Origin: Butyrivibrio sp. MC2013
GTDB taxonomy: Bacteria > Bacillota > Clostridia > Lachnospirales > Lachnospiraceae
NCBI RefSeq assembly: GCF_000424585.1
Contig: NZ_AUKE01000001.1
Span: 310,001-374,000, forward strand
Length of the DNA: 64,000 nucleotides
Direction of reading: 5' to 3'
Positions within the stretch are counted from its first letter, which is position 1; the number at the start of each line of letters is the position of its first letter. The notes beneath the pieces were generated by a model. It was not told where the DNA came from. It saw only the letters and a program-made list of their open reading frames with translations, and made no database searches. Positions 9,435 through 54,530 of this stretch are shown piece by piece. A program made the translations under genes and the position numbers.

Positions 9435-10874
9435 TTATCTGAATAAGTCATCACCTGTCACAATTGATTGAATATTTCCATAATATGAATTCTTCTCTAC
9501 ATCATAATTTGTAACTAGCGTAGAGTGAATAGCATATTTTGTTTTTGTAGCCTTCTGTAAATCAGCAATTTTTCTGCGCATAGCTTTATCAAACGCCAAA
9601 TCAGGTACATAATCTGACTCTGAATATTTCATTTCACATACATTGATGACTTGATCTTTTCTAACTATAAGAAGATCAATTTGAGAGCCTAATAATCCTT
9701 TATCGGAATCTGAATCACACTTCCAAGAATTCACATCTGTCTTTACACCGGAAATTCCTAATGCATTTTTAATCTGGGCAACATGCTCAAGACACACCCT
9801 CTCAAATGCTATTCCTGCCCACGCATTTAATACCCCTGAATTGCTAGAATTTTCCCAATAATTTTCATCGGAAACATTGTCTTTCAAAAACCTATTATAA
9901 AAAAGTGTGTAATTATCAATTAGTTGATATAAAGCATTTTTACTCTCTGCTCCAAATGGCACATATTTCCTTATGAACCCGCAATTTTCAAGTTCCTTTA
10001 ACTTCTTTGTAAGATCTCCGGAACTGGGAATTTTTGTCTTTTTGCAAATTTCATCCCTGGTAATTCCTTTATTAATACTACAAAGAGCCTCAATTATCTT
10101 AATGTACTGATCTGGTTTGTTAAATAAAGCCTTATATAGGTTATCATATTCGCCTTGTAACGAAGCTCCTTCCTTGAAAAACAATTCATCAATATTCTGC
10201 GGAAAACTTCTTCCTTTTTTAAGCAAGCTCCAATAATATGGCACTCCTCCAAGAATCATGTAACTCTGGATAATCTGATGCCTGGTAAAGAGTATCTTTT
10301 TTGTTTCCAAATATGCTTCACATTCTGCCAAAGTAAATGGTTTAAGTTTTATTTGACCAGTTAATCTATTGTGCAGTCCTCCTTTGGAATTTACAATATT
10401 GTCCATCATCCAATAGGTTGCCGAAGCACATACTATCAATATTACATCCTTTTCTTGACGTGCCGTTACCCATCCATTCCAGAAGTGCTCCAGTGCAGAA
10501 ACCAATTCACTTCCTTTTGTATCCATCCATGATAATTCATCAATAAATATGACTTTTTTTCCATCTGCAGATTGTCCGATAAGTTCCTTCAAACAATCAA
10601 ATGCGTCATACCAAGAGTTTAATTCTCTATCAGTGGAATAGCCTGATTCCGACAATGATTTTGAAAAAGCCTCTAGTTGAGCCTTTTTTCTCATATTTTT
10701 CTTTATTGAATTGCTACTAAGACCCGTATGCTGAAAAGTAAACTTATAGTCAAAGCTCTCCCTTATAAGAAATGTTTTTCCAACTCTTCTTCTGCCAAAA
10801 ACAGCTACGAACTGTGACTCTTCTTCATCTAATAATTGCTGTAACTGTCTTTTTTCTTCGATTCGTCCTATCAT
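9435..10874 (-). CDS. AAA ATPase with DUF234-like/nuclease-like C-terminus, copy 1
   Basis: A 479-residue soluble protein in three parts. (a) N-terminal AAA ATPase: Walker A FGRRRVGKTFLIR (about 26-38) and Walker B VIFIDELSWMD (near 112). (b) A winged-helix segment near residues 265-315 (GITRDEICKKTKI, then LTKKLKELENCGFI). (c) A C-terminal DUF234-like domain with SQIDLLIVRKDQVINVCEMK, where the Asp and the E-x-K spacing look like a PD-(D/E)xK nuclease core. The start is the ATG at 10874, aligned with copy 3; an in-frame TTG at 10895 lies inside an operator-like half-site. It is about 90% identical by eye to copy 3 (53091-54530) and more distantly related to copy 2 (47647-49065). A conserved operator/promoter block precedes it. 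The biological role of this family is not established. Confidence 0.85.
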   Translation of the reverse strand: MIGRIEEKRQLQQLLDEEESQFVAVFGRRRVGKTFLIRESFDYKFTFQHTGLSSNSIKKNMRKKAQLEAFSKSLSESGYSTDRELNSWYDAFDCLKELIGQSADGKKVIFIDELSWMDTKGSELVSALEHFWNGWVTARQEKDVILIVCASATYWMMDNIVNSKGGLHNRLTGQIKLKPFTLAECEAYLETKKILFTRHQIIQSYMILGGVPYYWSLLKKGRSFPQNIDELFFKEGASLQGEYDNLYKALFNKPDQYIKIIEALCSINKGITRDEICKKTKIPSSGDLTKKLKELENCGFIRKYVPFGAESKNALYQLIDNYTLFYNRFLKDNVSDENYWENSSNSGVLNAWAGIAFERVCLEHVAQIKNALGISGVKTDVNSWKCDSDSDKGLLGSQIDLLIVRKDQVINVCEMKYSESDYVPDLAFDKAMRRKIADLQKATKTKYAIHSTLVTNYDVEKNSYYGNIQSIVTGDDLFR

Positions 10875-10887
10875 TTTTAGTTCCCAT

Positions 10888-11009
10888 TTTTCCAATTCTC
10901 TATTTTTTATCTATATTTGGAAATTATTCATATACCTATTGTAATAGGAGCTTATCGGATAAGTCAATAAAAATTTCCAAATCTATTTATAAAAAAGAGC
11001 TTTGGAAAT
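10888..11009 (-). promoter_or_regulatory. Promoter with two inverted-repeat operators, ATPase copy 1
   Basis: Four 10-bp half-sites: CTTTGGAAAT (11000-11009) and ATTTCCAAAT (10973-10982) form one inverted pair with a 17-bp spacer. ATTTGGAAAT (10915-10924) and TTTTCCAATT (10888-10897) form the second, also with 17 bp. Between the pairs lie -35 TTGACT (10962-10967) and -10 TACAAT (10938-10943), 18 bp apart. The same arrangement occurs before copy 3 at 52950-53073. Confidence 0.75.
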
Positions 11010-11107
11010 TTTAATCGCAAAATTCTGTACTATCTTCTGCCAAAGTGAAATCAGCCCCAAATATTACTTGCCTTTATCTCACATTATTGTGCCAATTAAG
11101 GAAAAAC

Positions 11108-11186
11108 AGAAAAAGCTGCAAACTCAGATAATATCTAAGTTTACAGCCATTTTATTACTGCCGGCGACCGGGATCGAACCGGTCGC
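11108..11186 (-). repeat. tRNA T-arm/3'-end fragment plus terminator, copy III (att-like)
   Basis: On the minus strand the complete T-arm GCGACCGG-TTCGATC-CCGGTCGC (11164-11186) is followed by acceptor end GGCA. A terminator hairpin (11115-11147) and T-run come next. The rest of a tRNA would have to overlap the cyclophilin gene, whose stop is at 11208, and is absent. This copy keeps more of the tRNA than copies I and II. Confidence 0.65.
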
Positions 11187-11207
11187 TGCTATAATTTCAA
11201 TTCCTTT

Positions 11208-11738
11208 TTATCTCTCAGGCAGCTTCTCGGGTTCGGGATAATCCACGCCAAAGGTCTCAACTGTAACAGTCTTCATAACCTGGGGCTTAACAGGTCTGTC
11301 GCTCCAGTCTGTCTCTGTCTCAGCAATAGCATTAACCACATCCATACCCTCTGTGATCTGTCCAAATGCAGCATAGTCTCCATCCAGATGAGGAGAGTTC
11401 TTGTGCATGATAAAGAACTGACTGCCTGCGCTGTCAGGGATCATAGTCCTTGCCATGGATAATACGCCGGGCTCGTGCCTTAGCTCATTGCTAAAGCCAT
11501 TGGATGAAAACTCGCCCTTTATGCTGTATCCCGGGCCGCCCATACCAGTGCCGTCAGGATCTCCGCCCTGGAGCATGAAGCCCTTGATGACGCGGTGAAA
11601 GATCACGCCGTCATAAAAGCCCTTTTTGATAAGGGAGATGAAGTTGTTAACTGTGTTAGGTGCAATCTCAGGATAGAGCTCTGCCTTCATAACATCGCCG
11701 TTTTCCATGGTAATAGTAACAATAGGATTCTGTGCCAT
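11208..11738 (-). CDS. Peptidyl-prolyl cis-trans isomerase, cyclophilin type
   Basis: A 176-residue single-domain cyclophilin catalysing proline isomerisation during protein folding. The active-site Arg is in GVIFHRVIKGFMLQGGD (about 44-60), and the substrate-groove motif AGSQFFIMHKNSPHLDG follows near 106-122. There is no signal peptide, so it is cytosolic. The C-terminal tail ends YPEPEKLPER. Its 3' end abuts the tRNA-like copy III, so it marks the backbone side of the island boundary. Confidence 0.95.
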   Translation of the reverse strand: MAQNPIVTITMENGDVMKAELYPEIAPNTVNNFISLIKKGFYDGVIFHRVIKGFMLQGGDPDGTGMGGPGYSIKGEFSSNGFSNELRHEPGVLSMARTMIPDSAGSQFFIMHKNSPHLDGDYAAFGQITEGMDVVNAIAETETDWSDRPVKPQVMKTVTVETFGVDYPEPEKLPER

Positions 11739-11982
11739 ACTGTGTCCTTTCTGATTTTCACTATATTATTCATAGGGGATTTTTTTCCCCCGTTACTATT
11801 CTCTTTTTTAGAAAGCAAAAAGTCAAGAAAACATTTGAAGTGTAATGAAAAAGAAAAACCACTTCTGACGTGCGGTCAATAAGCACCATTAGTGTGTGAT
11901 GATTAACAATCCCCGCTCCTATGTGATAAAATTATGATATTAGTATAGTTGTGACAGAAGTTTATGGTAATCAGGTAGAGTC

Positions 11983-12939
11983 ATGCTAAGGAAAGTAGTA
12001 TTTATTTTTCATTCCACTCCTTTGGAAGAGCTGGAAAATATGCAGGAAGAGATCAGGTATCTTAATGACAATCATCTGGAGGCTGAGATCATCTCATGCC
12101 AAAGGATACAGGATATCTATGCGCTCATGGCCGGGCAAACTCCCGGAGCAGGGCCCAAGAAGCCTCTGCCTGAGCAGTTCAAAGAAGATCTCTTTCTCTG
12201 TGATGACCCTTCTGACCTTAGTTTCTTGCAAAACGAAGGACTCTACACCTGCGGCATGATAAAAGATGCCGCGTCAGGCTCTTCATTTAAAAATAGCAGA
12301 TACATATTCAGCGATGTGGACGATCTGGATGCAGATTCGCTGATAAAGGCCTGGCAGAGAGAGGCAGGGATCCCCTGGACCATCCTTGAGACAGACAGAC
12401 TCATTATCAGAGAGACCACTCCCGAGGACCTGGACAGTCTCTACTATATCTATTCAGATCCTTCAATGACCCGATATATGGAAGGGCTCTTTCCAAACAG
12501 AGAGGATGAGCTGCGCTATCTAAATGATTATATCGAGAAGGTCTACCATTTCATGGGCTTTGGCGTATGGTCACTTATAGAAAAGTCCACAGGAGAGCTC
12601 ATAGGGCGTGCAGGCTTTAGCAGCAGAAACGGCTTTGACAAGCCGGAGCTTGGCTTCTTTATAGGAGTGGACTGGCAGCGAAAGGGCTATGCCACAGAGA
12701 GCTGCAGTGCCATATTGGACTATGGCAGAAAGGTACTGGGCTTTGACAAGGTCCAGGCCCTGGTCAAGGAAGGCAACGATGTATCCGTTCATCTCCTTGA
12801 AAAGCTGGGCTTTAAGATGCAGGGCGTAGTCAGCATCGAAGAAGATATATACGGAGGCAGCTACAAGAATCAGGACCAGGTGAGCATCGTTCCTGAGAAA
12901 AAAGGTAATTACCTCTTATTAGATAAAAATCTCTTATGA
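11983..12939 (+). CDS. HAD-like N-terminal region fused to GNAT acetyltransferase (RimJ/RimL type)
   Basis: A 318-residue protein. Residues 140-305 are a GNAT domain of the ribosomal-protein-acetylase group, starting [19 protein letters not shown], with acetyl-CoA motif [13 protein letters not shown] and the typical ending [15 protein letters not shown]. Residues 1-135 look like a degenerate HAD-type region ([20 protein letters not shown], then [13 protein letters not shown]) without the catalytic DxDxT, so it is more likely binding than catalytic. The junction [11 protein letters not shown] is close. The acyl acceptor is unknown. The gene is divergent from the cyclophilin gene and its stop is 49 bp before the glycerol kinase start. 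No hydrophobic segment is present. Confidence 0.8.
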
Positions 12940-12988
12940 TATTGCAATAGATTCATTGTTGCTAAATAATTGCATAAAGGAGGCAGAT

Positions 12989-14491
12989 ATGACAGGCGGA
13001 AGCTATGTAATGGCACTGGACCAGGGAACCACCAGTTCCCGTTGTATCCTTTTTGACAAAGAGGGCTTTATCGTATCCATGGCCCAAAAGGAATTTAATC
13101 AGTATTATCCGCAGCCCGGCTGGGTAGAGCACAATCCCAGGGAGATATGGTCCTCACAGCTGGCAGTAGCCATAGAAGCCATGGCAAACGTAGGTGCCAC
13201 CGCTGACAACATAGCTGCCATCGGTATCACCAATCAGCGTGAGACCACCATAGTATGGGACAGAGAAACAGGCGAACCCATATACAATGCCATCGTGTGG
13301 CAGTGCAGGCGTACAGCCGATCAGATCGAAGAGCTCAAAAAGGAAGGCTGGGACAGCCTCATAAAAGACCGCACAGGCCTGGTCCCTGATGCATATTTTA
13401 GTGCCACCAAGATCAGGTGGATACTAGACAATGTAGACGGTGCCAAGGTCATGGCAAGAGAAGGCAGGCTTGCCTTTGGCAATGTGGACAGCTGGCTGAT
13501 CTGGAACCTGACCAAGGGCAAAATCCATGTGACAGACTATACCAATGCTTCCAGAACCATGCTTTTTGATATACACAGGTGCCAGTGGGACGAGGAACTG
13601 CTATCACTCTTTAAGATACCTATCTCTATGATGCCTGAGGTCAAGCCCTCCAGCTGCATCTACGGAGACAGCGATCCTTCCGTACTGGGCGGGCCCATCA
13701 TGATAGGAGGAGCTGCGGGCGACCAGCAGGCAGCCCTCTTTGGACAGAACTGCTTTGAGCCGGGACAGGTGAAGAATACCTACGGCACAGGCGGCTTCCT
13801 CCTCATGAATACAGGTAGTGATGCCATAAGGTCAGAACACGGCCTTGTCACTACTATTGCTGCCAGCCTTGGTCCAAGGCCTGAATACGCCCTTGAGGGA
13901 AGCGTGTTTGTAGCAGGCGCATCCATACAATGGCTCAGGGATGAGATGAGGATGCTAAAGTCCTCTGCTGCATCTGAAGAATACGCAGATATGGTAGCTG
14001 ATACGGCAGGAGTATATGTAGTACCTGCATTTACAGGAATGGGTGCTCCCTATTGGGACCCTTATGCCAGAGGCACCATCGTGGGCCTGAGCAGGGGCTG
14101 CAGAAAAGAGCACTTCGTAAGAGCCACACTGGAGTCTATCTGCTATCAGTCAGCAGATGTGATAAAGGCCATGGAAGAAGACGCAGCCTGCCCTCTTAAA
14201 GAGCTGAGAGTAGACGGCGGTGCCAGCGCCAATAACTTCCTCATGCAGTTCCAAAGTGATATCTGCGGTGTGACTGCTTACAGGCCCAAGTGCATAGAGA
14301 CTACTGCTCTTGGAGCTGCATACCTTGCCGGTATCGCCACGGGCTACTGGAAGGACAAGGAAGACGTAGAGAGAAACTGGCAGCTTGGCAGAAAGTTTGA
14401 AGCAAGGATGGATGAAGCAAAGAGAGCTGAGCTATTGAAGGGCTGGCACAGGGCTGTGAGGGCCGCCATAGCTTGGAGTGAAGACATATAA
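12989..14491 (+). CDS. glpK: Glycerol kinase
   Basis: A 500-residue FGGY-family kinase that phosphorylates glycerol to sn-glycerol-3-phosphate with ATP. The N-terminal phosphate loop is LDQGTTSSR, the glycerol-binding motif NQRETTIVW is near residue 81, ATP-binding features [14 protein letters not shown] are near 246, and the FGGY signature 2 segment is [11 protein letters not shown]. The length matches the family. The chosen ATG at 12989 follows AAAGGAGGCAGAT; an in-frame ATG at 12956 lacks a site. The last codons and stop (GACATATAAG) are part of a dispersed repeat, and a strong terminator follows. No glycerol facilitator gene is adjacent. Confidence 0.97.
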
Positions 14492-14571
14492 GTGCATCCA
14501 TGCACTTATGAGCATGTCATTATACTTCCTTGTATTGACGACATATAAGTGCATCCATGTATAGAAATGCA
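14483..14571. repeat. Dispersed double-hairpin repeat, copy A
   Basis: Layout: GACATATAAGTGCATCCATG with its pairing arm CATGCACTTATG, then AGCATGTCA, a degenerate TATACTTCCTTGTATT hairpin, and a second GACATATAAGTGCATCCATG. The first unit contains the glpK stop codon. The same architecture is seen at 18607-18703 and 51740-51800. Confidence 0.7.
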
Positions 14572-14573
14572 TC

Positions 14574-14602
14574 AAAAAAGGAGGTCATTGACCTCCTTTT
14601 TG
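14574..14602. terminator. Bidirectional terminator between glpK and the diacylglycerol-kinase-like gene
   Basis: AAAAAAGGAGGTCA and TTGACCTCCTTTTT form a stem with an A-tract on the left and a T-tract on the right. It therefore serves both the plus-strand glpK and the converging minus-strand cluster. Confidence 0.9.
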
Positions 14603-14610
14603 TATATCTT

Positions 14611-15510
14611 TTATTGATCCGGTACTTTGATAGTAATAGCTGCAGGAATGATACGAACATCAAGTCTCCTGTGATCTCCGCCAAACTCCCCGTCTCTGGT
14701 CCAGGGTATCATGTCCTCTGACTCAAATAGGACATGGCTGGTCTTGAAGCTGATCAGCCTATCGGAATCTATGCTGCCATCTCCAAGGAGGGCAGCAGCC
14801 AGATTGGCCAGCTCCAGGGGATTCCTGGGGGGCCTTATTAGAGTCACTTCAAATTCGCCATCGTCAAGGCCCACATCACGTCCTGTGATACCTGGGATGC
14901 CGCCTACCTGAGTGGCATTGGTGACCATGCCATATATGAAATCATCCTCTACGGAGATCTCATCGCTGGTAACCCTGAATCTGTAGGTCCTGATATCCTG
15001 GATCTCCCTTACGCTCTGCAAGAGGTATGCAGTATGGCCCAGGATGTTCTTGAGAGACTGGTCCGTACTGTAAGAAATATCGGTAAAGATGCCAAATGCC
15101 GCGCAGTATACAAAATAGTCATCATTCATGATGCCCATGTCACAGCGAAAATCCCTGCCTCCTGTGACTACTTCTGCAGCCCGGGGCATATATGACGGGA
15201 TGCCAAGGGACTTGGCAAAATCATTGGTAGAGCCTGCAGGAACATATCCAATAGGGGTATCAATTCCGGACATCAAAATACCGGAAACGACCTCATCCAG
15301 GGTCCCGTCACCTCCGCTGCAGACTACCATATCGTAGTCCTCGCCTCTGTTTGCAACGCGACTTTCTCCGTCTCCTCTGCTCTGAGTGGGGTGAGCTACT
15401 ACCTCATAGCCCGCCTTGGTAAAGTGATCGATCAGATCAAGGAGATGATTCCTGATTGTGGCCTTTCCGGCATGTGGATTATATACGAATAGCATCCTGG
15501 GATGAGTCAT
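14611..15510 (-). CDS. YegS/BmrU-family lipid kinase (diacylglycerol-kinase catalytic domain)
   Basis: A 299-residue cytoplasmic/peripheral kinase expected to phosphorylate diacylglycerol or a related lipid. The N-terminal NPHAGK is at 11-16, the nucleotide-binding GGDGTLDEV near residue 66, and PAGSTNDFAKSLG near residue 91 is the PxGTxNDFA motif with Ser in place of Gly-Thr order. The C-terminal part (GDHRRLDVRIIPAAITIKVP) fits the beta-sandwich end of the family. It is the last gene of the minus-strand cluster, 10 bp after the crh-like stop, with GAGGCGGAT before the ATG. A role in recycling diacylglycerol from envelope polymer synthesis is the usual inference. Confidence 0.9.
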   Translation of the reverse strand: MTHPRMLFVYNPHAGKATIRNHLLDLIDHFTKAGYEVVAHPTQSRGDGESRVANRGEDYDMVVCSGGDGTLDEVVSGILMSGIDTPIGYVPAGSTNDFAKSLGIPSYMPRAAEVVTGGRDFRCDMGIMNDDYFVYCAAFGIFTDISYSTDQSLKNILGHTAYLLQSVREIQDIRTYRFRVTSDEISVEDDFIYGMVTNATQVGGIPGITGRDVGLDDGEFEVTLIRPPRNPLELANLAAALLGDGSIDSDRLISFKTSHVLFESEDMIPWTRDGEFGGDHRRLDVRIIPAAITIKVPDQ

Positions 15511-15519
15511 ATCCGCCTC

Positions 15520-15786
15520 TTATGCGCTGGTCTTAGATCCCTCTAAAAAACCTGTCATATCGTCAACAGCTTCCTGCTCGTCAACGCCCTCTGCAAGGAG
15601 GGTGATGGATTCACCGTTTCCAAGATTCAAAGTCATCATACCCATAATGGACTTTGCATTAACCTTGCGGTTCTCGTACTCGATATGAATGGTGCTCTCA
15701 TACTTACTGGCAACCTGTACAAGTTCTGCTACAGGACGTGCCTCAAGTCCGTGGGGAAGCTTGATTTCTACCAACTTCTTGATCAT
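15520..15786 (-). CDS. Crh-like HPr paralogue (Glu at catalytic position 15)
   Basis: An 88-residue HPr-fold protein. The segment PHGLEARPVAEL places Glu at position 15, where true HPr has the phosphorylated His (GIHARP); Bacillus Crh has Gln there. Ser46 is kept in NAKSIMGMM. It therefore cannot relay phosphate in the PTS but should be a substrate of the HPr kinase encoded in the same cluster, and so a candidate catabolite-repression cofactor. The ATG at 15786 follows GGAGGTATTT; the upstream in-frame ATG at 15798 is part of that site. It follows whiA, as crh does in Bacillus. The function is inferred from residues and synteny. Confidence 0.85.
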   Translation of the reverse strand: MIKKLVEIKLPHGLEARPVAELVQVASKYESTIHIEYENRKVNAKSIMGMMTLNLGNGESITLLAEGVDEQEAVDDMTGFLEGSKTSA

Positions 15787-15802
15787 AAATACCTCCATTT
15801 GT

Positions 15803-16756
15803 CTAGCGGGCGCCGCCTCTTAAAGATTCAGCCAGTTCACTGAGTTTCCTAAGGCGATGATTAACTCCGGACTTTCCCACCGGGGGATTCAGGTAGCCGC
15901 CCAGCTCCTGCAGTGACGCGTCCGGATGCTCCAGTCTGGCTTCAGCCATATCCCTGAGAGCGTCACTAAGTCTCGAGAAGCCGTAATGCTTCTCTATATA
16001 TCTGATGTCATCCACCTGCCTGCTGGCTGCATTCACCGTCTTGGTGATATTGGCCGCTTCACAGTTAACACGGCGGTTGACACTGTTTCTCATATCCTTG
16101 TATATCCTCATGTTCTCCAGCTCCATGAGACTCCTGTGAGCTTCCATCAGGCCCAGGAGATTCACAATCTCCTCGCCTTCCTTGAGGTATACAACATAAT
16201 ACTTCTTTCTCTGTACCATCCCGGCCCTGATATCAAAGGACTGCAATACTTCCATAATCTGCGCGGCCTGAGCGCTGCTGTCGCAGACATATTCCAGATG
16301 GTAGGACTTGCTGGGATCCGAGATAGATCCCACGCAGATGAACATCTCCCTGAGGAATGCTCTCCTGCAACATGGATTATGAAGTAAAAGAGGGCTCACA
16401 ACAGCCTCGGGGATACTGAGGCTCTCCTTATTATCCAGCTGTTTAAGCGCCTTTAACACGGACTTTACCAGTTCCCTGTCTCTAAGTACAGGCCTGTATA
16501 TACGTCCATCTCCATGTATTTCCGTTTCCGTCTCAAAAACGTCATTTTCTATATTAAAGGCTTTTTTTAATATTGTAAAGCATTTTCTGACAGCGTAGGG
16601 ATTGGCACTCTGAAGGTAGATAGCGGCCTCGCCGCCGCTTTCAAGCTCTATCCAGCCCTCCATCCTAAGGATCACGGCAAGACCTGCCAGCAGGCAGTGC
16701 CTGGCTTTGCTGTCACGCTGCATCAGCTCTTCTTTGACTTCTCTGGAAAAAGACAT
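15803..16756 (-). CDS. whiA: Sporulation/cell-division regulator WhiA
   Basis: A 317-residue DNA-binding protein with an N-terminal LAGLIDADG-homing-endonuclease-like fold (about 1-200; KARHCLLAGLAVI, then CCRRAFLREMFICVGSISD) and a C-terminal helix-turn-helix (about 220-310; ANITKTVNAASRQVDDIRYI, then LGGYLNPPVGKSGVNHRLRK). WhiA proteins affect division and chromosome segregation in Firmicutes. The ATG at 16756 follows GGGGAGAACCT and lies 13 bp after the rapZ stop; longer frames upstream read into rapZ. The yvcK gene that usually separates rapZ and whiA is missing here. Confidence 0.95.
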   Translation of the reverse strand: MSFSREVKEELMQRDSKARHCLLAGLAVILRMEGWIELESGGEAAIYLQSANPYAVRKCFTILKKAFNIENDVFETETEIHGDGRIYRPVLRDRELVKSVLKALKQLDNKESLSIPEAVVSPLLLHNPCCRRAFLREMFICVGSISDPSKSYHLEYVCDSSAQAAQIMEVLQSFDIRAGMVQRKKYYVVYLKEGEEIVNLLGLMEAHRSLMELENMRIYKDMRNSVNRRVNCEAANITKTVNAASRQVDDIRYIEKHYGFSRLSDALRDMAEARLEHPDASLQELGGYLNPPVGKSGVNHRLRKLSELAESLRGGAR

Positions 16757-16769
16757 AGGTTCTCCCCTA

Positions 16770-18594: not shown

Positions 18595-18606
18595 CAGTAG
18601 CTTTCA

Positions 18607-47430: not shown

Positions 47431-47526
47431 TTGCCGAAAGGCAGCAAGAAGTATGTACTTAGATATAGGCAAAACAACAAAAAGAGACTAACCGAAATCA
47501 ATTTGGGCGAAATGGATTTCGGTTAG
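47431..47526 (+). CDS. Possible 31-residue basic peptide
   Basis: A TTG start at 47431 has AAGGAG 7 bp upstream and opens LPKGSKKYVLRYRQNNKK, ending at TAG 47524-47526 inside the hairpin at 47483-47531. The peptide is Lys/Arg-rich. It matches no family I know, uses a TTG start, and may be chance or a relic of a lost mobile element. Confidence 0.2.
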   Translation: MPKGSKKYVLRYRQNNKKRLTEINLGEMDFG

Positions 47527-47615
47527 TCTCTGCACTAGTCATAAATCAAGTTTATGACTGAATAATTCAACTCCGCTGAATCTATCTTTTTTTACAAGAT
47601 TAAGCGGAGTTGAAT
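47483..47615. repeat. Three consecutive hairpins downstream of ATPase copy 2
   Basis: (1) 47483-47531: AGAGACTAACCGAAATC pairs perfectly with GATTTCGGTTAGTCTCT. (2) 47537-47559: AGTCATAAA pairs with TTTATGACT. (3) 47565-47615: ATTCAACTCCGCTGAATCT pairs with AGATTAAGCGGAGTTGAAT, one mismatch. The third is the copy-2 half-site motif that recurs at 49069-49202. None has a terminator-like T-tract. Confidence 0.75.
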
Positions 47616-47646
47616 TTGTGGAATCAGTTTGCCACATCCCCTTGAC

Positions 47647-49065
47647 TCACACAAAAAGGTCATCCATTGTAACTACTGATTGAATGTTTCCGGAATAACT
47701 ATTATCGACAAGGCCATAACTAGTGATGATAGTAGGATATATGGCATATTTGGTTTTGCTGCTGAGCATCAAGTCGGATATCTTGTGCCTGATATCCCGG
47801 TCCACATCTCCGCTTATAGTATATTCGCTGGAAGAGTATTTCATCTCGCACAGATTGATAACCTGGTCATTTCTGACTATCAGTAGGTCAATCTGGGATC
47901 CGTGGATCCCGGCCTCCGGGTCAGCTTTGATATAACAGGAATTACTCTCCGTCTTTACCCCGGATATACCAAGCTTATTCTTGATCTGCATAATGTGTTC
48001 CAGGCATACACGCTCAAAAGCAAGCCCCTGCCAGGTATTGATCCTTGGGGTATTAATCTGACCGGACCAGAAATGCTCATCTGTCTGCCCATCTTCCATA
48101 AATTGATAATAGAATAGCGTGAAGTTATCTATAAGCTGATATACCGCATTTTTCTTTTTCATCCCAAAGGCGTTAAATTTTCTAATGAATCCACAGCTTT
48201 CCAATTCTTCCAGCTTCTTGGTCAGTTCACCGGAATTTGTCAGCTTCGTACTATATATTATTTCCTCTCTTGTCATACCAGCTTTTTTGCTGCCCAAGGC
48301 TTCGACTATCCTGATATATGCCTCAGGATGTCTGAATATAGAAGCATAGAGATATTTGAACTCATTTCTTAATGGCGCTTTTGGGGCAAATAATATCTTA
48401 TCTATATTCTGTGAGATGCTCAGTCCCTTTTCCAAAAAGGTCCAATAATACGGCACACCTCCAAAGATCATATAGAATTGCAGAATCTGATTTCTGGAAA
48501 AAGCAAAGCCATTATATCGAACGAATTCCTCACATTCCGCAAGAGAAAAAGCTGTTAATGCTATCTCCTCCGTAAGTCTGTGGTATAGCCCGCCCTTATT
48601 ATGTATGATATTAGAGAGCATCCAAGAGGTTGCTGAGGCGCATACTATCAATATGATATCTGTCCTTGCGGATGCCCAGCCATTCCAAAAGTTCTCCAAA
48701 GCAACCATCAGATCACTGTTCTGAGTATCCATCCAGGATAATTCATCTATGAAAATGATCTTCTTATTTTCTCTGGAAGCCCTGATCAGATCCTTCAAGT
48801 CCTCAAATGCCTCGAGCCAGTTCTTTCTGCTAGTGTCAGCGCTCCCTCCTGCATCCTTAATCGAAGCTTCAAAAGCAAATATCTGCTCCCTAAGACCTCC
48901 TGCTGATAATCCGGCATGCTGAAAGGTAAACCTGTAATTAAAAGCCTCTCTTATCAAATATGTCTTGCCAATCCTTCTGCGACCATACACTGCAATAAAA
49001 TGGGATCTATCATCGTTAACTGCAGCATTCAGCATTTTAATCTCGGCATTTCTTCCTATTATCAT
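47647..49065 (-). CDS. AAA ATPase with DUF234-like/nuclease-like C-terminus, copy 2
   Basis: A 472-residue soluble protein of the same family as copies 1 and 3 but clearly more diverged. Walker A YGRRRIGKTYLIR (near 27) and Walker B IIFIDELSWMD are intact, as are the winged-helix part (AGMTREEIIYSTKL) and the nuclease-like SQIDLLIVRNDQVINLCEMK. The ATG at 49065 has GCGGAG upstream; that site is part of the 19-bp half-site motif, so repressor binding there would also touch translation. An in-frame TTG at 49074 is less likely. The stop overlaps a TGAGTCAAGGGG phrase also found at 56.2 kb. Confidence 0.85.
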   Translation of the reverse strand: MIIGRNAEIKMLNAAVNDDRSHFIAVYGRRRIGKTYLIREAFNYRFTFQHAGLSAGGLREQIFAFEASIKDAGGSADTSRKNWLEAFEDLKDLIRASRENKKIIFIDELSWMDTQNSDLMVALENFWNGWASARTDIILIVCASATSWMLSNIIHNKGGLYHRLTEEIALTAFSLAECEEFVRYNGFAFSRNQILQFYMIFGGVPYYWTFLEKGLSISQNIDKILFAPKAPLRNEFKYLYASIFRHPEAYIRIVEALGSKKAGMTREEIIYSTKLTNSGELTKKLEELESCGFIRKFNAFGMKKKNAVYQLIDNFTLFYYQFMEDGQTDEHFWSGQINTPRINTWQGLAFERVCLEHIMQIKNKLGISGVKTESNSCYIKADPEAGIHGSQIDLLIVRNDQVINLCEMKYSSSEYTISGDVDRDIRHKISDLMLSSKTKYAIYPTIITSYGLVDNSYSGNIQSVVTMDDLFV

Positions 49066-49068
49066 ATT

Positions 49069-49202
49069 ATTCAACTCCGCTTAATCTCGATTAAAATATC
49101 ACTTTAAGCAAATTTTACACCTAAACAACGGCATCAGCAACCTCATAAGCAAATTCAACTCCGCTTAATCTGCCTTTTTGACAAGATTAAGCGGAGTTGA
49201 AT
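49069..49202 (-). promoter_or_regulatory. Promoter and operator-like repeats, ATPase copy 2
   Basis: Half-site ATTCAACTCCGCTTAATCT occurs at 49153-49171, its exact complement at 49184-49202 (12-bp spacer), and again at 49069-49087 over the ribosome-binding site of copy 2. Between them on the minus strand lie -35 TTGCTG (49140-49135) and -10 TAAAAT (49117-49112) with a 17-bp spacer. Confidence 0.65.
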
Positions 49203-49213
49203 ATAGTAAGATC
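49181..49213. repeat. Direct repeat flanking the 831-residue surface-protein gene (left)
   Basis: ACAAGATTAAGCGGAGTTGA continuing ATATAGTAAGATC matches 51891-51922 (ACAAGCTCAAGCGGAGTTGA continuing ATATCGTAAGATT) in the same orientation, with three mismatches in the first 30. The pair brackets the gene at 49221-51716. Confidence 0.7.
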
Positions 49214-49220
49214 TATTGAC

Positions 49221-51716
49221 TCATTGCACATACAGGGTGATGGTTGCGCCATCCTTTGAAGGAATCAGGGGTTCGTATACATCGCACATCTTCTTGCCTT
49301 TTGCGTCATAACTGTAATCAGGTAACATCTGTCTACCTTCTTCATCGCGATAGACTATAGCATGAAAGAGCTGGTCTAGTTTCGCCTGATCTACGTCGTA
49401 GTACAGATATGTATCAAAAGGGGCAAAGGCTTTGGTGTATTTCTGGCCGTTATATTCAATGGTCTTACCATTCGGATTGATGACCAGCTTGAACCTGGTT
49501 GGTTTGAAGACAGGCCTCAAATCCAGGTCCATTATGTTTCCTGCTTTAATCTGGGTTACATATCCGGATTTATTTCTTTTTAGATATTTTCCCTCGTATT
49601 CTGATGTTGGCTCCCAGCCGCAGAATGTATAGTTAGGCAGCGACAGGGTGGGCAATTTGATAGTTTTATTGCATGCATAGTATCCACTGTCATCATAATC
49701 CGGTAGGTACTCTGTCAGATCCAGACTATCATAGAGCTTATTATTGCCGCATAGCAGAGTAGCCTTGGAATTATATGTAACACCATAATTACAGACATCC
49801 CATATACAATAGAGGGTTACTGAACCGGTCCTGCCGCCAAAGTACTCTTCATCTACAGCCTCATAACCATGTTTCGCTTTTGGATTAGTAGAGAAGAAGC
49901 GCATTTCATAGCCTCTTCTGCTAAATGCCTCTGGCAGCTCAACCATATATTCTATATAATCCAGAGCAAACGCAGTGGAGCCATCTATTGTATATAATCC
50001 AAAGAGCATCTTTTTCTTATATTGATAGCCATCGCAGCAAACGCCTTTGGCATTTGGATCTATATAAATTTTATAAACCTTAGGCATATACACTGCATAG
50101 AGATTGATGTCCATCTTGCAGCCGGCCTTTATGGAAGTGACTAGCCTTATTTTCTCATCGCCTGCTTTGACTGTTTTATATCCCAGGTATTCGGAGTCTT
50201 CGTCGGTTGCCCATCCCAGGAATTTATAGCCTTTTTTGCTAGCCTTGGGCAGGGTGACTTTCTTCTTGCCGCTGAATCTGGTAACAGCCTTGGTCAATGA
50301 TCCGCCATCCGAAAAATAGCTTATCCTGTATATGTTCTTGGTCTTTTTGGTGACAGGATACAAGGTGAGATCGCTTTCACCTGTATAAAATCTCTTATAG
50401 CTCTTGGTGAGATTAAAATCTGCCTTGCCGCCCGGAGTCTTGGAAAAGCCTACCACCTCGGTATCGCATCCAAGCTGCTGGCTGATATAGTCTGCCGCAG
50501 CTGCGAAATTTATAGAATCAGTATAAAAATAGTAATTGTCCTCACCAAAGTTCGCAGGCTGCTCTAGCATAGTTCCATCTGCCTTAGCAAAATAGATACA
50601 AAAATCATTTTTGGTAAACTGTGCGTACAATGTAAGGGTGCCATAAAAGGGATATTCCGCATCAGGAGTCAGTGTGAGCAGCTCCCTATCATACCCTTGT
50701 TCTGCAAATTCGGAATCTGTATTATCGTAATAAGGCACCCATTCAGAAAAGTGGTATCCTTTCTTAGTGGGCTTAGGGAGCTTAATAGTTTCACCGGTTT
50801 TATATGTTGCAGGTGCGCTTTTTACCTTTCCGCCATTTAGTATATATTTGATCTTGTAGGTAATAGGAGAATATACAGCGTAGAGCTCTACCATATCGTT
50901 TTGCTTGCTTGTAAGATTCTTGATCTTATCTGTAGGCTTATAAGTTACTTCCTGACCGTTTACTGTGCCCTTCCACGCAGTGAGACGATAGCCATTGGGA
51001 GCGTCTGTGTATTTGGACAGATCAATAATCTCGTCGTACGCGACATACAGCATATCTCCACCTTCGCCATGCAGATCTAGATTATATTCAATAGGTGTCC
51101 ACATAGCGTACAATTCCAGCTTATTGCAGACCCCCTTATTCATTTTGGCATGATCGGCCCACATTTCATATATACTATGTGCTTCAATCCAGTTATCTTC
51201 GTCTTCATATCCATATATGAGGCCCTTGCTGCTCTTCCAGCCCGAGAATATATAGCCCTTTCTGGTGAAAATGTCGCTAAAATAATCTAAACTATCATCC
51301 TTCGAGATCACAAGCTTCTTTGTAGCATCTTTTTTCTTTGGTCCAGCGTGGAAGATCACTGTAAGTCCGGCTGCGGGATAAGGATAAACATCATCTTCTT
51401 CATCCTCTTCACCTTCAGAGCCTTCTTCATTTTCTGTCTCTTCTTCGGTTTCCGTACCCTCTTCGCTGCCTGCAGCTATATCGTTATCTGATACAGTGGC
51501 TGACTCATCAAGCTCCTCAGACAATTCATTATCCGAAACAGTAGCAGACCAAGCCGCATCTGTGGACAATTCATTATCAGAGACAGTTTGGATAGCATCA
51601 TACTCATTAGAAATTATTGCAAAAGGCGCTTGGGCCAGACAGCTGATCGCTGATGACGCGCCAATGACAAGTGACAGACAGATAGCACCGACACTTTTTA
51701 ATAGATATTTTTTCAT
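49221..51716 (-). CDS. Secreted InlB-repeat surface protein with TVSDN repeats
   Basis: An 831-residue protein. The signal peptide covers about residues 1-29 (LSLVIGASSAISCLAQA). Residues 45-80 contain three TVSDNEL/TVSDNDI repeats, followed by an acidic Glu/Thr stretch. About ten InlB/Listeria-Bacteroides-type repeats follow (RKGYIFSGWKSSKG, KKGYHFSEWVPY, KKGYKFLGWATDED and relatives), each with a conserved W/F and G. The C-terminus (DGATITLYVQ) is short with no sorting signal. GGGGGG lies 4 bp before the ATG. A promoter (51808-51837) and a dispersed repeat lie upstream. The last 414 bp are duplicated in inverted orientation at 55767-56180. Likely surface adhesin. Confidence 0.88.
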   Translation of the reverse strand: MKKYLLKSVGAICLSLVIGASSAISCLAQAPFAIISNEYDAIQTVSDNELSTDAAWSATVSDNELSEELDESATVSDNDIAAGSEEGTETEEETENEEGSEGEEDEEDDVYPYPAAGLTVIFHAGPKKKDATKKLVISKDDSLDYFSDIFTRKGYIFSGWKSSKGLIYGYEDEDNWIEAHSIYEMWADHAKMNKGVCNKLELYAMWTPIEYNLDLHGEGGDMLYVAYDEIIDLSKYTDAPNGYRLTAWKGTVNGQEVTYKPTDKIKNLTSKQNDMVELYAVYSPITYKIKYILNGGKVKSAPATYKTGETIKLPKPTKKGYHFSEWVPYYDNTDSEFAEQGYDRELLTLTPDAEYPFYGTLTLYAQFTKNDFCIYFAKADGTMLEQPANFGEDNYYFYTDSINFAAAADYISQQLGCDTEVVGFSKTPGGKADFNLTKSYKRFYTGESDLTLYPVTKKTKNIYRISYFSDGGSLTKAVTRFSGKKKVTLPKASKKGYKFLGWATDEDSEYLGYKTVKAGDEKIRLVTSIKAGCKMDINLYAVYMPKVYKIYIDPNAKGVCCDGYQYKKKMLFGLYTIDGSTAFALDYIEYMVELPEAFSRRGYEMRFFSTNPKAKHGYEAVDEEYFGGRTGSVTLYCIWDVCNYGVTYNSKATLLCGNNKLYDSLDLTEYLPDYDDSGYYACNKTIKLPTLSLPNYTFCGWEPTSEYEGKYLKRNKSGYVTQIKAGNIMDLDLRPVFKPTRFKLVINPNGKTIEYNGQKYTKAFAPFDTYLYYDVDQAKLDQLFHAIVYRDEEGRQMLPDYSYDAKGKKMCDVYEPLIPSKDGATITLYVQ
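49224..49637 (-). repeat. 414-bp inverted duplication, copy in the intact gene
   Basis: The 3' 414 bp of the surface-protein gene has a collinear copy of the same length, without gaps, on the opposite strand at 55767-56180. The first about 290 bp (in gene order) look identical; the last about 100 bp differ at many positions. Confidence 0.85.
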
Positions 51717-51739
51717 ACTTCCCCCCTGTTAAATGATTA

Positions 51740-51800
51740 GTCAGAATACACGGATGTATTTCGACACGCTTTGAAGTGCAGGGATGCACTTGAGTGTCGC
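51740..51800. repeat. Dispersed double-hairpin repeat, copy C
   Basis: GTCAGAATACACGGATGTAT, then TTCGACACGCTTTGAAGTGC, then AGGGATGCACTTGAGTGTCG: two hairpins and CGACAC borders as in copies A and B. It lies between the -10 (51808) and the surface-protein start (51716), so it is transcribed in the 5' leader. Confidence 0.7.
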
Positions 51801-51807
51801 AAATACT

Positions 51808-51837
51808 AGTATATCCCTCATTTCATGCAGGGGTCAA
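51808..51837 (-). promoter_or_regulatory. Sigma-A type promoter of the 831-residue surface protein
   Basis: On the minus strand -35 TTGACC (51837-51832), an 18-bp spacer and -10 TATACT (51813-51808). The initiation site would fall near 51801, giving a leader of about 85 bp that contains repeat copy C. The rest of 51838-51944 holds only the direct repeat at 51891. Confidence 0.65.
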
Positions 51838-51890
51838 TGAGTCAAAACTAAACGTCCCTGGCGGATCTTGGTTTTATCCTATCATTTTTA

Positions 51891-51922
51891 ACAAGCTCAA
51901 GCGGAGTTGAATATCGTAAGAT
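51891..51922. repeat. Direct repeat flanking the 831-residue surface-protein gene (right)
   Basis: Right-hand member of the pair described at 49181-49213. It contains the half-site motif of ATPase copy 2 (AAGCGGAGTTGAAT). Confidence 0.7.
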
Positions 51923-51944
51923 TCGCCGGATCATACACAATGTA

Positions 51945-51973
51945 TTGACAACGAATACACAGAGAATTACAAT
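51945..51973 (+). promoter_or_regulatory. Sigma-A type promoter of the RelB/DinJ-like antitoxin gene
   Basis: TTGACA (51945-51950), a 17-bp spacer and TACAAT (51968-51973), 44 bp before the antitoxin start. Confidence 0.75.
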
Positions 51974-52016
51974 GATAACAGAAGAATAACTTTAGTGTTT
52001 TAAGGAGGCATGCTCT

Positions 52017-52268
52017 ATGGCACAGATAAGTATGAGAATAGACGATAATGTTAAAAGAAAAGCTGAAATTGCGTGCGAGGCACTGGGAATGAACATGACA
52101 ACCGCCATCAATCTGTATCTTGTAAAGTTAGGTAATGAAATGAGAATCCCATTTGAGGTATCAGTTGATCCATTTTATAATCCAGTAAATCAGAGTGTTC
52201 TTGAAAAATCCATACAACAACTCAATGCAGGCAAAGGAAAACAACACGACATTATAGAGGTGGACTAA
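52017..52268 (+). CDS. RelB/DinJ-family antitoxin
   Basis: An 83-residue antitoxin. The N-terminal half (ISMRIDDNVKRKAEIACEAL, then GMNMTTAINLYLVKL) is a ribbon-helix-helix DNA-binding domain. The acidic tail (AGKGKQHDIIEVD) would neutralise the toxin. TAAGGAGG is 9 bp upstream of the ATG. The toxin gene starts 4 bp after its stop but is truncated, so the antitoxin is orphaned here. Such proteins also repress their own promoter. Confidence 0.9.
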   Translation: MAQISMRIDDNVKRKAEIACEALGMNMTTAINLYLVKLGNEMRIPFEVSVDPFYNPVNQSVLEKSIQQLNAGKGKQHDIIEVD

Positions 52269-52271
52269 TAA

Positions 52272-52421
52272 ATGAATAAAACATGGTCTGATATTGCCTG
52301 GGAGGATTATTTATATTGGCAAACAATTGTCCATCATGCTCAGCATAAGAGTCTTACCAAACCTACGAGGCCTTGTGAACAGGCTGACAGCATTATCCGT
52401 ATCATGAACCAGCTCATATAG
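52272..52421 (+). pseudogene. YoeB/Txe-like toxin, truncated after about 18 residues
   Basis: The frame starts MNKTWSDIAWEDYLYWQT, the N-terminus of YoeB/Txe ribosome-dependent mRNA interferases. After codon 18 it continues with unrelated residues (IVHHAQHKSLTKPTRPC) that are antisense to the AAA-like fragment, and stops at 52421. The catalytic C-terminal residues are missing. The breakpoint lies near 52325. Confidence 0.8.
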
Positions 52422-52487
52422 CATCTCGGTTTTATCTACATAGTAATTACCATGCTCCCTGATATCTCTAAAATCTGATTTGCCAAC
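52326..52487 (-). pseudogene. N-terminal fragment of an AAA-ATPase-like (DUF1703-associated) protein
   Basis: On the minus strand VGKSDFRDIREHGNYYVDKT, then EMLYELVHDTDNAVSLFTRP and RRFGKTLMLSMMDN, the start of the AAA-ATPase-like family with a C-terminal PD-(D/E)xK domain. The Walker A (RPRRFGKT) is present but the gene ends at the YoeB junction. It is joined in frame to abiEii sequence. Confidence 0.75.
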
Positions 52488-52745
52488 ATCAACCTCTTCC
52501 TTCAGATAGTAAATATCAAACACATCTTTATATCTTGTGGAGCGGCTTCCGAATCTCACAAGTGATTTCAGTTTTTCAGTAATCATCTGATGTCTGGAAT
52601 TAATCAAAAGGCTTACAGCGTCATCCTGGAATCCCACGTCAAAAGCATATTCTTCCTGTTCAAGCGTAAGGTCAGCATGAACACCTATATCCATCTTCAG
52701 AGAAAGCATTGTTCCCTCAACATCTTCGACAGTTAGTGTAATCCT
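52488..52745 (-). pseudogene. AbiEii-like toxin, C-terminal half
   Basis: On the minus strand RITLTVEDVEGTMLSLKMDI, then GVHADLTLEQEEYAFDVGFQ and STRYKDVFDIYYL: the middle and C-terminal part of AbiEii nucleotidyltransferases, including the conserved EKL segment and the STRYKDVFD helix. The N-terminal half is at 54719-55060 on the same strand. Together they form one gene split by about 1.97 kb that carries ATPase copy 3. Confidence 0.8.
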
Positions 52746-52949
52746 CTCAAAAAAGCACTATTTTTAAGAATAGTATCTTTTTTATTTATGAACTAATAGA
52801 GATATATATGATAATAAATATAATATTATAATCAATTCTGTATGAAAAAAGCTTTCAAATCTAGTGGAGGTAATTACAAATACAAAAGCAGTCGTACGCG
52901 GGAAACTGCCTTGTATAGTGTCAAGAATATATAGTCGAAAGAAAGTAAA
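52746..52949. other. Left flank of the inserted ATPase segment
   Basis: Right at the abiEii break is a hairpin ACTATT-TTTAAG-AATAGT (52757-52774) between an A-tract (52749-52754) and a T-tract (52777-52783), a terminator-like bidirectional structure. The rest to 52949 shows no gene; a GTGGAGGTAATTACAAATAC stretch near 52863 has an SD-like element but no recognisable product. Confidence 0.5.
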
Positions 52950-53073
52950 ATTTCCAAATCGCATTATTATTATGACATTTGGAAAATATAAACTTGACAG
53001 GCGGGACACGCTTTTTTACAATTTATGTATGATTTATTTCCAAATGTACTTAATAATCTTATGTTTTGGAAAA
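52950..53073 (+). promoter_or_regulatory. Promoter with two inverted-repeat operators, ATPase copy 3
   Basis: Half-sites ATTTCCAAAT (52950-52959) and ATTTGGAAAA (52977-52986) with a 17-bp spacer; promoter TTGACA (52994-52999), 17 bp, TACAAT (53017-53022); then ATTTCCAAAT (53036-53045) and TTTTGGAAAA (53064-53073) with an 18-bp spacer. The distance from the -10 to the third half-site is 13 bp, exactly as in copy 1. Confidence 0.8.
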
Positions 53074-53090
53074 AATGAGGTTTAAGCTGA

Positions 53091-54530
53091 ATGATAGGAC
53101 GAATCGAAGAGAAAAGACAATTGCGACAACTGTTAACCGCAGATGAGGCGCAATTTGTTGCAGTTTTCGGTAGACGAAGAATTGGAAAGACGTTTCTTAT
53201 AAGAGAGAGTTTTGATTATAAGTTTACTTTTCAACATACTGGTCTCAGTAATAATTCAATAAAGAAAAATATGAGGAAAAAGACTCAGTTGGAAGCTTTT
53301 TCAAAATCGTTGAAAGATGCGGGTTTTTCTACTGATAGGACATTAAACTCATGGTATGATGCATTTGATTGCCTAAAAGAACTTATCAAGCAGTCTAAAG
53401 ATACTAAGAAGGTAATATTTATTGACGAGTTATCTTGGATGGATACTAAAGGGAGTGAATTAATCTCTGCACTTGAGCACTTCTGGAATGGATGGGTAAC
53501 TGCCCGCCCAGAAAAGGATGTTATTCTGGTGGTATGCGCTTCTGCAACGTATTGGATGATGGACAACATTGTTAATTCAAAAGGTGGTTTACACAATAGA
53601 CTAACTGGACAAATAAAGCTAAAACCATTTACTTTGGCAGAATGCGAAGAGTATTTAAAAACGAAAAAGATATCTTTTAACCGACATCAGATTATTCAAT
53701 GTTACATGATTCTTGGTGGCGTACCTTATTATTGGAGCCTGCTTAGTAAAGGAAAGAGCCTTTCGCAAAATATAGATGAGCTCTTTTTCAAAGAAGGAGC
53801 TTCATTACAGGACGAATATGACAACCTTTACAAGGCCCTTTTTAATAAACCAGATCAATATATTAAAATAATTGAGGCCCTTTGCAGCGTCAATAAAGGA
53901 ATTACAAGGGAAGAAATTTGTAAAAAGACTAAGATTCCAAGTTCCGGAGATCTTACTAAAAAACTAAAGGAACTTGAAAATTGTGGTTTCATAAGAAAAT
54001 ATGTGCCATTTGGTGCAGAGAGTAAAAATGCGTTATATCAGCTTATTGATGGTTATACACTTTTTTATAATAGATTTTTAAGAGATAATGCATACGATGA
54101 TAATTTTTGGAAGAACGCAACTAACTCCGGGCAAATAAATGCATGGACGGGAATCGCATTTGAAAGAGTCTGTCTTGAACATGTTTCCCAAATAAAAAAA
54201 GCATTAGGAATTTCAGGAGTTCAGACCAATGTAAATTCATGGAAATGTGAGGCAAATCCTGATAAAGGATTGTTGGGGTCTCAGATAGATCTTTTAATCA
54301 TTAGAAAAGATCAAGTCATCAACGTATGTGAGATGAAGTATTCTGAGTCAGATTATGTGCCTGACCTGGCGTTTGATAAAGCTATGCGAAGGAAAATTGC
54401 AGATTTACAGCAGGCAACAAAAACAAAGTTTGCCATTCATTCTACATTGGTAACGACTTATGATGTGGAAGAAAATTCATATTATGGAAATATCCAATCC
54501 ATTGTAACGGGTGAAGATTTATTCAGATGA
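53091..54530 (+). CDS. AAA ATPase with DUF234-like/nuclease-like C-terminus, copy 3
   Basis: A 479-residue protein nearly colinear with copy 1. Walker A FGRRRIGKTFLIR and Walker B VIFIDELSWMD are intact. The winged helix is GITREEICKKTKI. The C-terminal nuclease-like core is SQIDLLIIRKDQVINVCEMK. The ATG at 53091 is the only start consistent with copy 1; a weak GAGG lies 15 bp upstream. It has its own promoter with paired operators and a clean terminator, so it is a self-contained transcription unit. It lies inside a split abiEii gene, in the opposite orientation. The family's activity is not known; an ATPase-controlled nuclease or regulator is inferred. Confidence 0.88.
   Translation: MIGRIEEKRQLRQLLTADEAQFVAVFGRRRIGKTFLIRESFDYKFTFQHTGLSNNSIKKNMRKKTQLEAFSKSLKDAGFSTDRTLNSWYDAFDCLKELIKQSKDTKKVIFIDELSWMDTKGSELISALEHFWNGWVTARPEKDVILVVCASATYWMMDNIVNSKGGLHNRLTGQIKLKPFTLAECEEYLKTKKISFNRHQIIQCYMILGGVPYYWSLLSKGKSLSQNIDELFFKEGASLQDEYDNLYKALFNKPDQYIKIIEALCSVNKGITREEICKKTKIPSSGDLTKKLKELENCGFIRKYVPFGAESKNALYQLIDGYTLFYNRFLRDNAYDDNFWKNATNSGQINAWTGIAFERVCLEHVSQIKKALGISGVQTNVNSWKCEANPDKGLLGSQIDLLIIRKDQVINVCEMKYSESDYVPDLAFDKAMRRKIADLQQATKTKFAIHSTLVTTYDVEENSYYGNIQSIVTGEDLFR

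Follow-up and report, generated by a model that had tools for sequence, protein, structure and literature searches.

Single-gene ATPase–nuclease units in Butyrivibrio carry private, helically phased palindrome arrays that suggest copy-by-copy self-control

PDC-S27 is listed by PADLOC as a single-gene phage defence candidate, with candidate status only. PMC12988326 describes it as an ATPase fused to a PD-(D/E)XK member, with 3503 systems in archaea and 4562 in bacteria; PMC13356809 gives 2865 PDC-S27 in rumen genomes, and PMC1913061 connects the archaeal ATPase family with the N-terminal region of DUF1703, a different nuclease family. We analysed 64,000 nucleotides of Butyrivibrio sp. MC2013 (contig NZ_AUKE01000001.1, positions 310,001–374,000; hereafter the window) carrying three genes of this type, each preceded by its own array of palindromic repeats. 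An initial annotation had offered them as a possible uncharacterised family; the proteins were in fact already catalogued as PDC-S27 and discussed in print, and it is the palindromes that are without description in the literature searched. The main text of PMC12988326 gave no matches for 'palindrom', 'inverted repeat' or 'promoter'. Among the matches listed (titles and beginnings of abstracts, with no preprints and few subscription journals covered), we found no paper on palindromes of the PDC-S27 family and nothing on PDC-S27 mechanism. The three genes are:

9435..10874, minus strand: copy 1, AAA ATPase, winged-helix region and PD-(D/E)XK nuclease of PDC-S27 type, ATG start
47647..49065, minus strand: copy 2, domain order as in copy 1, ATG at 49065
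53091..54530, plus strand: copy 3, domain order as in copy 1, 88% identity to copy 1

These open reading frames (ORFs) lie where the initial annotation had put them. That of copy 1 can be read from a TTG (9435–10895, minus), with an internal ATG giving 10874, and that of copy 2 extends to a TTG at 49074 (47647–49074, minus). All three proposed copies are in the window, but the genome total is higher: a protein search of 3,813,073 bases in 48 contigs found eight intact ATPase–nuclease copies and, where a contig ends, a single 3′ fragment.

Several other described systems resemble these genes in part. Proteins combining ATPase_2 and DUF234 (STAND-type archaeal ATPases) share the former with all three window copies and the latter with copy 3, and provide the best fold match, 2qen; they differ in that four archaeal members tested have no comparable palindromes. 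STAND/Avs nucleases (Avs3, 8dgc), also among the fold matches, likewise hold a P-loop ATPase and a PD-(D/E)XK nuclease in one chain, but the present protein, at 479 residues, is too short for a long repeat sensor. The Avs layout also places the nuclease at the opposite end. In RAYT/REP systems, an HUH transposase gene is flanked by cognate palindromes, many REPs are dispersed and solo palindromes exist. Flanked genes and solo palindromes recur here; we nonetheless rejected membership because the protein is an ATPase_2/DUF234 PD-(D/E)XK protein and the palindromes are non-dispersed where tested, the copy 2 motif having one outside site with 3 mismatches. Restriction C-proteins are separate small regulators with inverted-repeat operators. 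Loci with WYL-type regulators or RptR are likewise reported to have inverted-repeat operators over a defence-gene promoter; there the regulator is a separate small protein, whereas here a single protein would combine the roles of regulator, ATPase and nuclease, with an operator for each copy.

The architecture first proposed, an AAA domain, a winged helix and a nuclease core, is supported, the middle part as a winged-helix-like region. Pfam ATPase_2 (PF01637) is above cut-off in 3/3 window copies. The PADLOC PDC-S27 model (PDLC04984) matches all five copies scanned over its full length (model positions 3–4 to 473 of 474, E 3.6e-191 to 8.4e-203) and finds eight copies in the genome, while NCBIfam and PHROGs returned no specific family for the protein. 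DUF234 (PF03008) covers the C-terminal part, above cut-off in one of four copies scanned (copy 3, 22.7 against 22.5 bits) and below it in three (copy 2, 19.4). The middle region, which forms helices and strands in the model, has weak, sub-threshold Pfam matches to HTH_24 and MarR_2. An AlphaFold model of copy 3 (predicted local distance difference test, pLDDT, 85; predicted template-modelling score, pTM, 0.83) is closest in Foldseek to 2qen, a Pyrococcus ATPase (E 2.9e-11), then to ORC/Cdc6, Avs3, Card1 and the NB-ARC protein Roq1. Modelled alone, the C-terminal 149 residues (pLDDT 87) form a helix, three strands, a helix and a strand, the alpha-beta3-alpha-beta core of the nuclease fold; AF1548 is the best match (E 7.8e-4, the sole one below 0.001), with Card1, NucS/EndoMS, BstEII and Cas4-like proteins at E 0.002–0.04. 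The active site maps to:

54162..54338, plus strand: copy 3 nuclease active-site residues E358, D400, E414 and K416, all four invariant in 111 aligned relatives

ATPase residues R28, R29, K33, T34, D112 and E113 are invariant in 111 sequences. With both the nuclease and the checked Walker residues unvarying, nuclease and ATPase look active.

Each copy was said to carry a dedicated repeat, with 10-bp half-sites at copies 1 and 3 and a 19-bp half-site at copy 2, and we find the same. The sequence ATTTGGAAAT has four exact occurrences in the window where chance predicts 0.29, and all four fall in the control regions of copies 1 and 3; allowing one mismatch gives 11 window sites, six at these two arrays and five elsewhere. 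Both copies have four half-sites (up to 2 mismatches), arranged as two dyads 85–87 bp apart that flank a predicted promoter:

10888..11009, minus strand: putative copy 1 operator array, half-sites 10888–10897 (2 mismatches), 10915–10924, 10973–10982 and 11000–11009 (1 mismatch), same-orientation spacing 85 bp
10938..10967, minus strand: copy 1 predicted promoter, TTGACT / TACAAT, between the two dyads; consensus match, equal score in 2/30 shuffles
52950..53073, plus strand: putative copy 3 operator array, half-sites 52950–52959, 52977–52986 (1 mismatch), 53036–53045 and 53064–53073 (2 mismatches), same-orientation spacing 86–87 bp
52994..53022, plus strand: copy 3 predicted promoter, TTGACA-17-TACAAT, between the two dyads; equal score in 1/30 shuffles

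The genome-wide search for the 10-bp motif covered only exact direct-orientation pairs within 200 bp and gave one, at copy 3. At copy 2, ATTCAACTCCGCTTAATCT (19 bp, up to 3 mismatches) has six window sites, all within 4.4 kb around the gene, against 0.01 expected, and elsewhere in the genome only the outside site already mentioned. Two outcomes had been named beforehand as refuting: motifs common in the genome away from such ATPase genes, and structure models devoid of a nuclease fold. Within the searches made, neither was seen. The placement of the repeats in control regions holds for the upstream arrays; copy 2 has a further palindrome 3′ of its gene.

49069..49087, plus strand: copy 2 half-site adjoining the start codon, 84 bp to the same-orientation half-site at 49153
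49153..49202, no strand: putative copy 2 operator dyad, two perfect 19-bp arms, 12-bp spacer
47565..47615, no strand: second copy 2 dyad, 3′ of the gene, 19-bp arms with 1 mismatch, 13-bp spacer
51894..51912, minus strand: lone copy 2 half-site, 2 mismatches, upstream of the neighbouring repeat-protein gene; a possible remnant

Beyond the downstream palindrome lies a terminator-like 22-bp hairpin with a 5-bp loop (47483–47531).

An inverted repeat precedes the gene in all eight intact genome copies. There are seven different sequences, one of them common to copies 1 and 3. In gene orientation, by locus, they are:

L001 and L002: ATTTGGAAAT
L003: ATTCAACTCCGCTTAATCT
L004: 24-bp arm around TTCTGGCGATTTATAA
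L005: TTTAATCAGCGG
L006: TTTTATCTTTATCT in two dyads
L007: two different dyads
L008: TTGACCGCCGC

The arrays extend well beyond this genome. Taking the best inverted-repeat score in the 250 bp before a gene, with 12 or more as strong, we found that 113 of 137 related genes, drawn from several phyla, are preceded by a strong repeat; among control upstream regions, 17 of 177 have one. Within the genus sample, a relative at E ≤ 1e-40 occurs in 30/61 genomes; 57 of the 59 matches listed were retrieved (left out: G042:C1:1266876 and G014:C33:6455), and without L019, which lacks a gene start, 56 loci remained. Fifty of these reach the threshold, against 5/32 hand-picked other window ORFs and 9/1120 dinucleotide shuffles. 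A second set, the best 80 of 564 confirmed loci in named genomes (Lachnospiraceae, Bacteroidales, Kiritimatiellae, Lentisphaerae, Succinatimonas, Synergistaceae and others), has 63/81 rows at or above 12, with a doubtful start in two (L060 and the second row of L081). The corresponding figure is 12/145 for control ORFs of the same loci (Mann–Whitney p = 1.8e-23; many control ORFs are probably operon-internal, which may depress their scores, and related loci are non-independent). Plasmid and phage loci at ≥35% identity exceed all 100 shuffles in five of six cases (L171 and L215 are the same in sequence, and L203 repeats L045). In a phylum sample, the PDC-S27 model matches at E ≤ 1e-60 in 4/149 genomes, the present one included, and in 0/14 control genomes. 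DUF4143 genes of the genome were tried as a control family and dropped, three copies being too few: one has a strong repeat (L204, 0/100 shuffles), and the other two gave 4 and 50 of 100. As a separate observation, genome G054 has a palindrome, ACATTCCGGCAT/ATGCCGGAATGT, at several places near two ATPase loci (L040 and L052), which may be an independent dispersed repeat.

The arrays sit where a promoter is predicted. At 49/56 genus loci, a count that had no control of its own, the top sigma-70-like match either overlaps the best dyad or falls in the interval from dyad to gene, and at seven it is further upstream; 21/56 matches exceed all 30 shuffles, the remainder being weaker. In five copies (L005, L023, L025, L029 and L048), the predicted −10 box ends 6–7 nt before the inferred start codon, which would leave the array outside the mRNA there and points to DNA operators, not RNA hairpins. 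Same-orientation half-site distances (n = 88, up to 150 bp) cluster at 52–54, 62–63, 83–84 and 94–95 bp, with about a dozen between peaks. These peaks approximate multiples 5, 6, 8 and 9 of 10.5 bp, that is, whole turns of DNA; a period scan is best at 10.50 bp (R = 0.75), a value reached by 0/2000 jittered sets, with related loci non-independent. Over 35 close pairs, which overlap in members, identity is 80.3% in the arms, 74.8% from dyad to start and 62.3% in the spacer. Omitting five pairs with arms at or below 60%, a filter that favours arms, gives 87.9, 76.1 and 64.1%, with 85.9% for the gene. The low spacer conservation (62.3% against 74.8%) is sufficiently explained by neutral drift, and we discarded the spacer as a cut site. 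Half-sites are often recognisably common to two copies only above about 60% protein identity.

Promoter position, phasing, symmetric and retained arms and copy-specific sequences are together what is expected of a cooperative operator bound by the protein itself. We put the probability at about 0.58 that this is a single-gene, defence-type ATPase–nuclease repressing itself via a private phased operator. In each unit, helically phased palindromes private to it would surround or cover the promoter of a single gene, encoding an AAA ATPase–winged-helix–PD-(D/E)XK nuclease. We infer that the protein, in dimeric or larger form, most likely occupies its own palindromes cooperatively, and that this binding would repress its own promoter, keeping a dangerous nuclease scarce and parked; the need for such tight control would follow from the nuclease being fused. 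The most plausible trigger would be an infecting phage or foreign DNA, detected by means of the ATPase; it would then bring release, more expression and nuclease activation. The sequences suggest self-control of each copy through a DNA code specific to it. As operator sequences differ between nearly all distinct copies, many of them could coexist without cross-control. Defence is the most likely purpose given the PDC-S27 listing, the patchy occurrence, the horizontal spread and the nuclease, a role assigned through guilt by association.

Several observations weigh against this proposal. Beyond the uncontrolled promoter count, 24/137 rows score below 12, and arms exceed dyad-to-start identity in only 24/35 pairs. 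In the set at ≥35% identity, the Wolbachia phage copy, with short arms, does not exceed all 100 shuffles, and its two palindromes stand 56 bp apart, no whole number of turns (MN180249). Among nine plasmid members at ≤33% identity, four of them archaeal, only that of Rhodothermus exceeds all 100 shuffles. Half-site similarity tracks no single domain when compared with AAA, winged-helix and nuclease identity in 111/137 rows (26 dropped, 23 for a weak repeat and three for a short frame; Spearman 0.03–0.09, winged-helix permutation as high in 47/500), so no part of the protein stands out as the reader of the DNA, and we do not claim reading by the winged helix. An operator role leaves unexplained both the half-sites found 3′ of the gene in 14/104 loci and the persistence of arrays without a gene. 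There is also no direct phage link, anti-phage function resting on the PADLOC association.

The first rival, which we consider rather unlikely, treats the palindromes as recognition or end sequences of a mobile nuclease element, DNA substrates of the protein in homing or transposition, with the promoter overlap secondary. Apart from this rival, the units are seen to move horizontally: the ATPase gene of L007, L021 and L022 is 99.4–99.6% identical in DNA across three species whose cyclophilin genes are 77–80% identical, indicating recent horizontal transfer. Such transfer, with patchy occurrence (30/61 genus genomes), agrees with the earlier view of autonomous regulated units and not housekeeping genes. 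In favour of the rival, copies that are nearly identical but differently surrounded have a compact block in common, running roughly from the outer edge of the palindromes to a little past the stop codon (L090/L102, 90% identical within one metagenome-assembled genome, −90 to +3; L105/L111, −111 to +11; L004/L041, −111 to +6). An own half-site also lies within 150 bp 3′ of the stop codon, giving sites on both gene sides, in the 14 loci among 104 testable ones noted above, where swapped motifs average 0.4 and reach at most 1. In the latest transfers, however, the block extends past the array and ends off the palindromes (L010/L012, −188 to +20; L021/L022, −233 to +161); L023/L025, another recent pair, shares −774 to +15. 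The other 90/104 loci have no site within 150 bp 3′ of the gene, the 19-bp motif of copy 2 is non-dispersed in its genome, and by the standards of insertion sequences the blocks are compact, but inspection of five pairs by eye revealed neither a common terminal sequence nor a target duplication. Short matches, GCCTGTA/TACAGGC among them, do not recur from pair to pair, and we rejected them as transposon ends. Some pairs with longer common flanks, for example L024/L047, are plain orthologues. L090 and L102 differ in that the asymmetric position in the arms of their two dyads has changed sides, left for right, which would fit an exchange of arms.

Gene loss can be seen at a flavodoxin locus. There the gene is present in L178, L181, L182 and L185; it is gone in L179 (sister of L178, flanks 97–98% identical), which keeps one half-site up to mid-dyad, and in L183 (sister of L185), which keeps one half-site, and L180 and L184 have neither gene nor clear half-site. 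At least two of these gene-less states look like losses, not empty targets, which speaks against the mobile-element reading. Two half-site pattern searches of the 61 genomes gave 12 and 10 matches, against 0 and 3 for the reversed control pattern. The first comprised five at ATPase genes, five dyads or arrays with no ATPase within 1.5 kb either side and two in long open frames. Among its gene-less arrays, L229, L230, L234 and L237 share one orthologous place (L229 being 3.4 kb from the L027 ATPase), and L235 is the L027 locus with the array kept and the gene gone. The second comprised four at ATPase genes, two arrays with no intact gene (L242, and L247 with a remnant) and four in long open frames. 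Units are lost, sometimes leaving part or all of the array. For copy 1, whose cyclophilin neighbour occurs in 56/61 genomes, we compared 30 retrieved loci including its own; the 29 others have no copy 1 neighbour within about 1.5 kb, except a 25%-identity match in L167, and the comparison is not informative as a chromosomal empty site. Three further observations belong to these loci. The L229 solo dyad, with a T-rich run after it, may act as a terminator. L078 has a second array about 1 kb upstream, preceding what looks by eye like a truncated ATPase gene. L047 (2760–2900), compared with L179 (560–1440), lacks most of one gene, which we take to be MerR-like, with GATAAATTT at both sides of the gap.

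Phage WO speaks for the mobile-element alternative. The Wolbachia phage MN180249 has a 38% identical copy between its head protease and decoration genes, preceded by two palindromes. A palindrome of that kind occurs, once per record with the pattern used, in the same gap of 6/7 WO records, and five of these six have no ATPase gene there; the palindrome may be a target, a remnant or a phage element. IMG/VR gave only seven loci, including two different copies (L220 and L224) on one contig, and there are seven phage records. We rejected such occurrence as evidence for or against defence.

A distinctly unlikely extension would make the unit a one-gene selfish or defensive element whose phased array serves as operator and address, the nuclease distinguishing its home locus from other DNA by reading the array. 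The two partners, protein and array, would then co-diversify into many orthogonal pairs and spread as array plus gene, and gene-less arrays, as in phage WO and sister genomes, would be immunity tags or decoys against the nuclease.

Binding of the arrays by an unrelated host regulator, not the protein itself, is improbable. It gains from the missing covariation of any domain with the half-site; a shared regulator would however impose one consensus, while the copies differ in sequence and the half-site sequence of a given protein is kept by its close relatives in other species. A replication-initiator or partition-like system, with an ORC-like ATPase on phased iterons beside its own gene, is more improbable again. 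Initiators do bind phased repeats and autoregulate, and in Foldseek the AAA/winged-helix part matches Pyrococcus 2qen first and ORC/Cdc6 chains next. NB-ARC and Avs chains match too, however, at somewhat higher E-values, several units occur per genome in a patchy distribution, the compared blocks are mostly single-gene and the intact nuclease site is invariant. Control by transcribed hairpins, as attenuator or RNA antitoxin, can hardly be right: the arms reach about 25 bp in length and many are perfect, but 10.5-bp phasing is a double-helix property not required of an RNA hairpin, the array lies upstream of the predicted −10 box in the five copies named above and the spacer, the would-be loop, is the least conserved part. 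As to type II or III toxin–antitoxin systems, most common blocks hold one gene and the predicted promoter positions contradict an RNA reading; neighbours were not surveyed systematically.

Broken genes or repeats were reported beside every copy. This is so for copy 3, which adjoins a broken toxin–antitoxin/ATPase fragment, and for copy 2, which adjoins its own palindromes, but not for copy 1, which lies between a response-regulator gene and a cyclophilin gene, both apparently intact. Between the copy 1 end and the response-regulator gene is a perfect 34-bp palindrome with no spacer (9172–9205), unrelated to the array. At 52018–52709, an antitoxin gene (presumably RelB/DinJ-like) is followed by the start of a toxin gene (presumably YoeB-like) that is cut short and runs into a fragment with matches to AbiEii and AAA-ATPase_like (PF08843, PF09820). 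Beyond copy 3, two short minus-strand ORFs (54719–55638), the first with a weak, sub-threshold match to AbiEii, are perhaps a type IV toxin–antitoxin pair.

PDC-S27 is an abundant immune candidate, and if most bacterial copies in this clade have their own phased operator, that would give a direct handle on its mechanism. The array supplies a predicted binding site for each protein and a route to derepress the gene for phage tests. The family may also serve as a natural library of about a hundred protein–DNA pairs with many different sequences.

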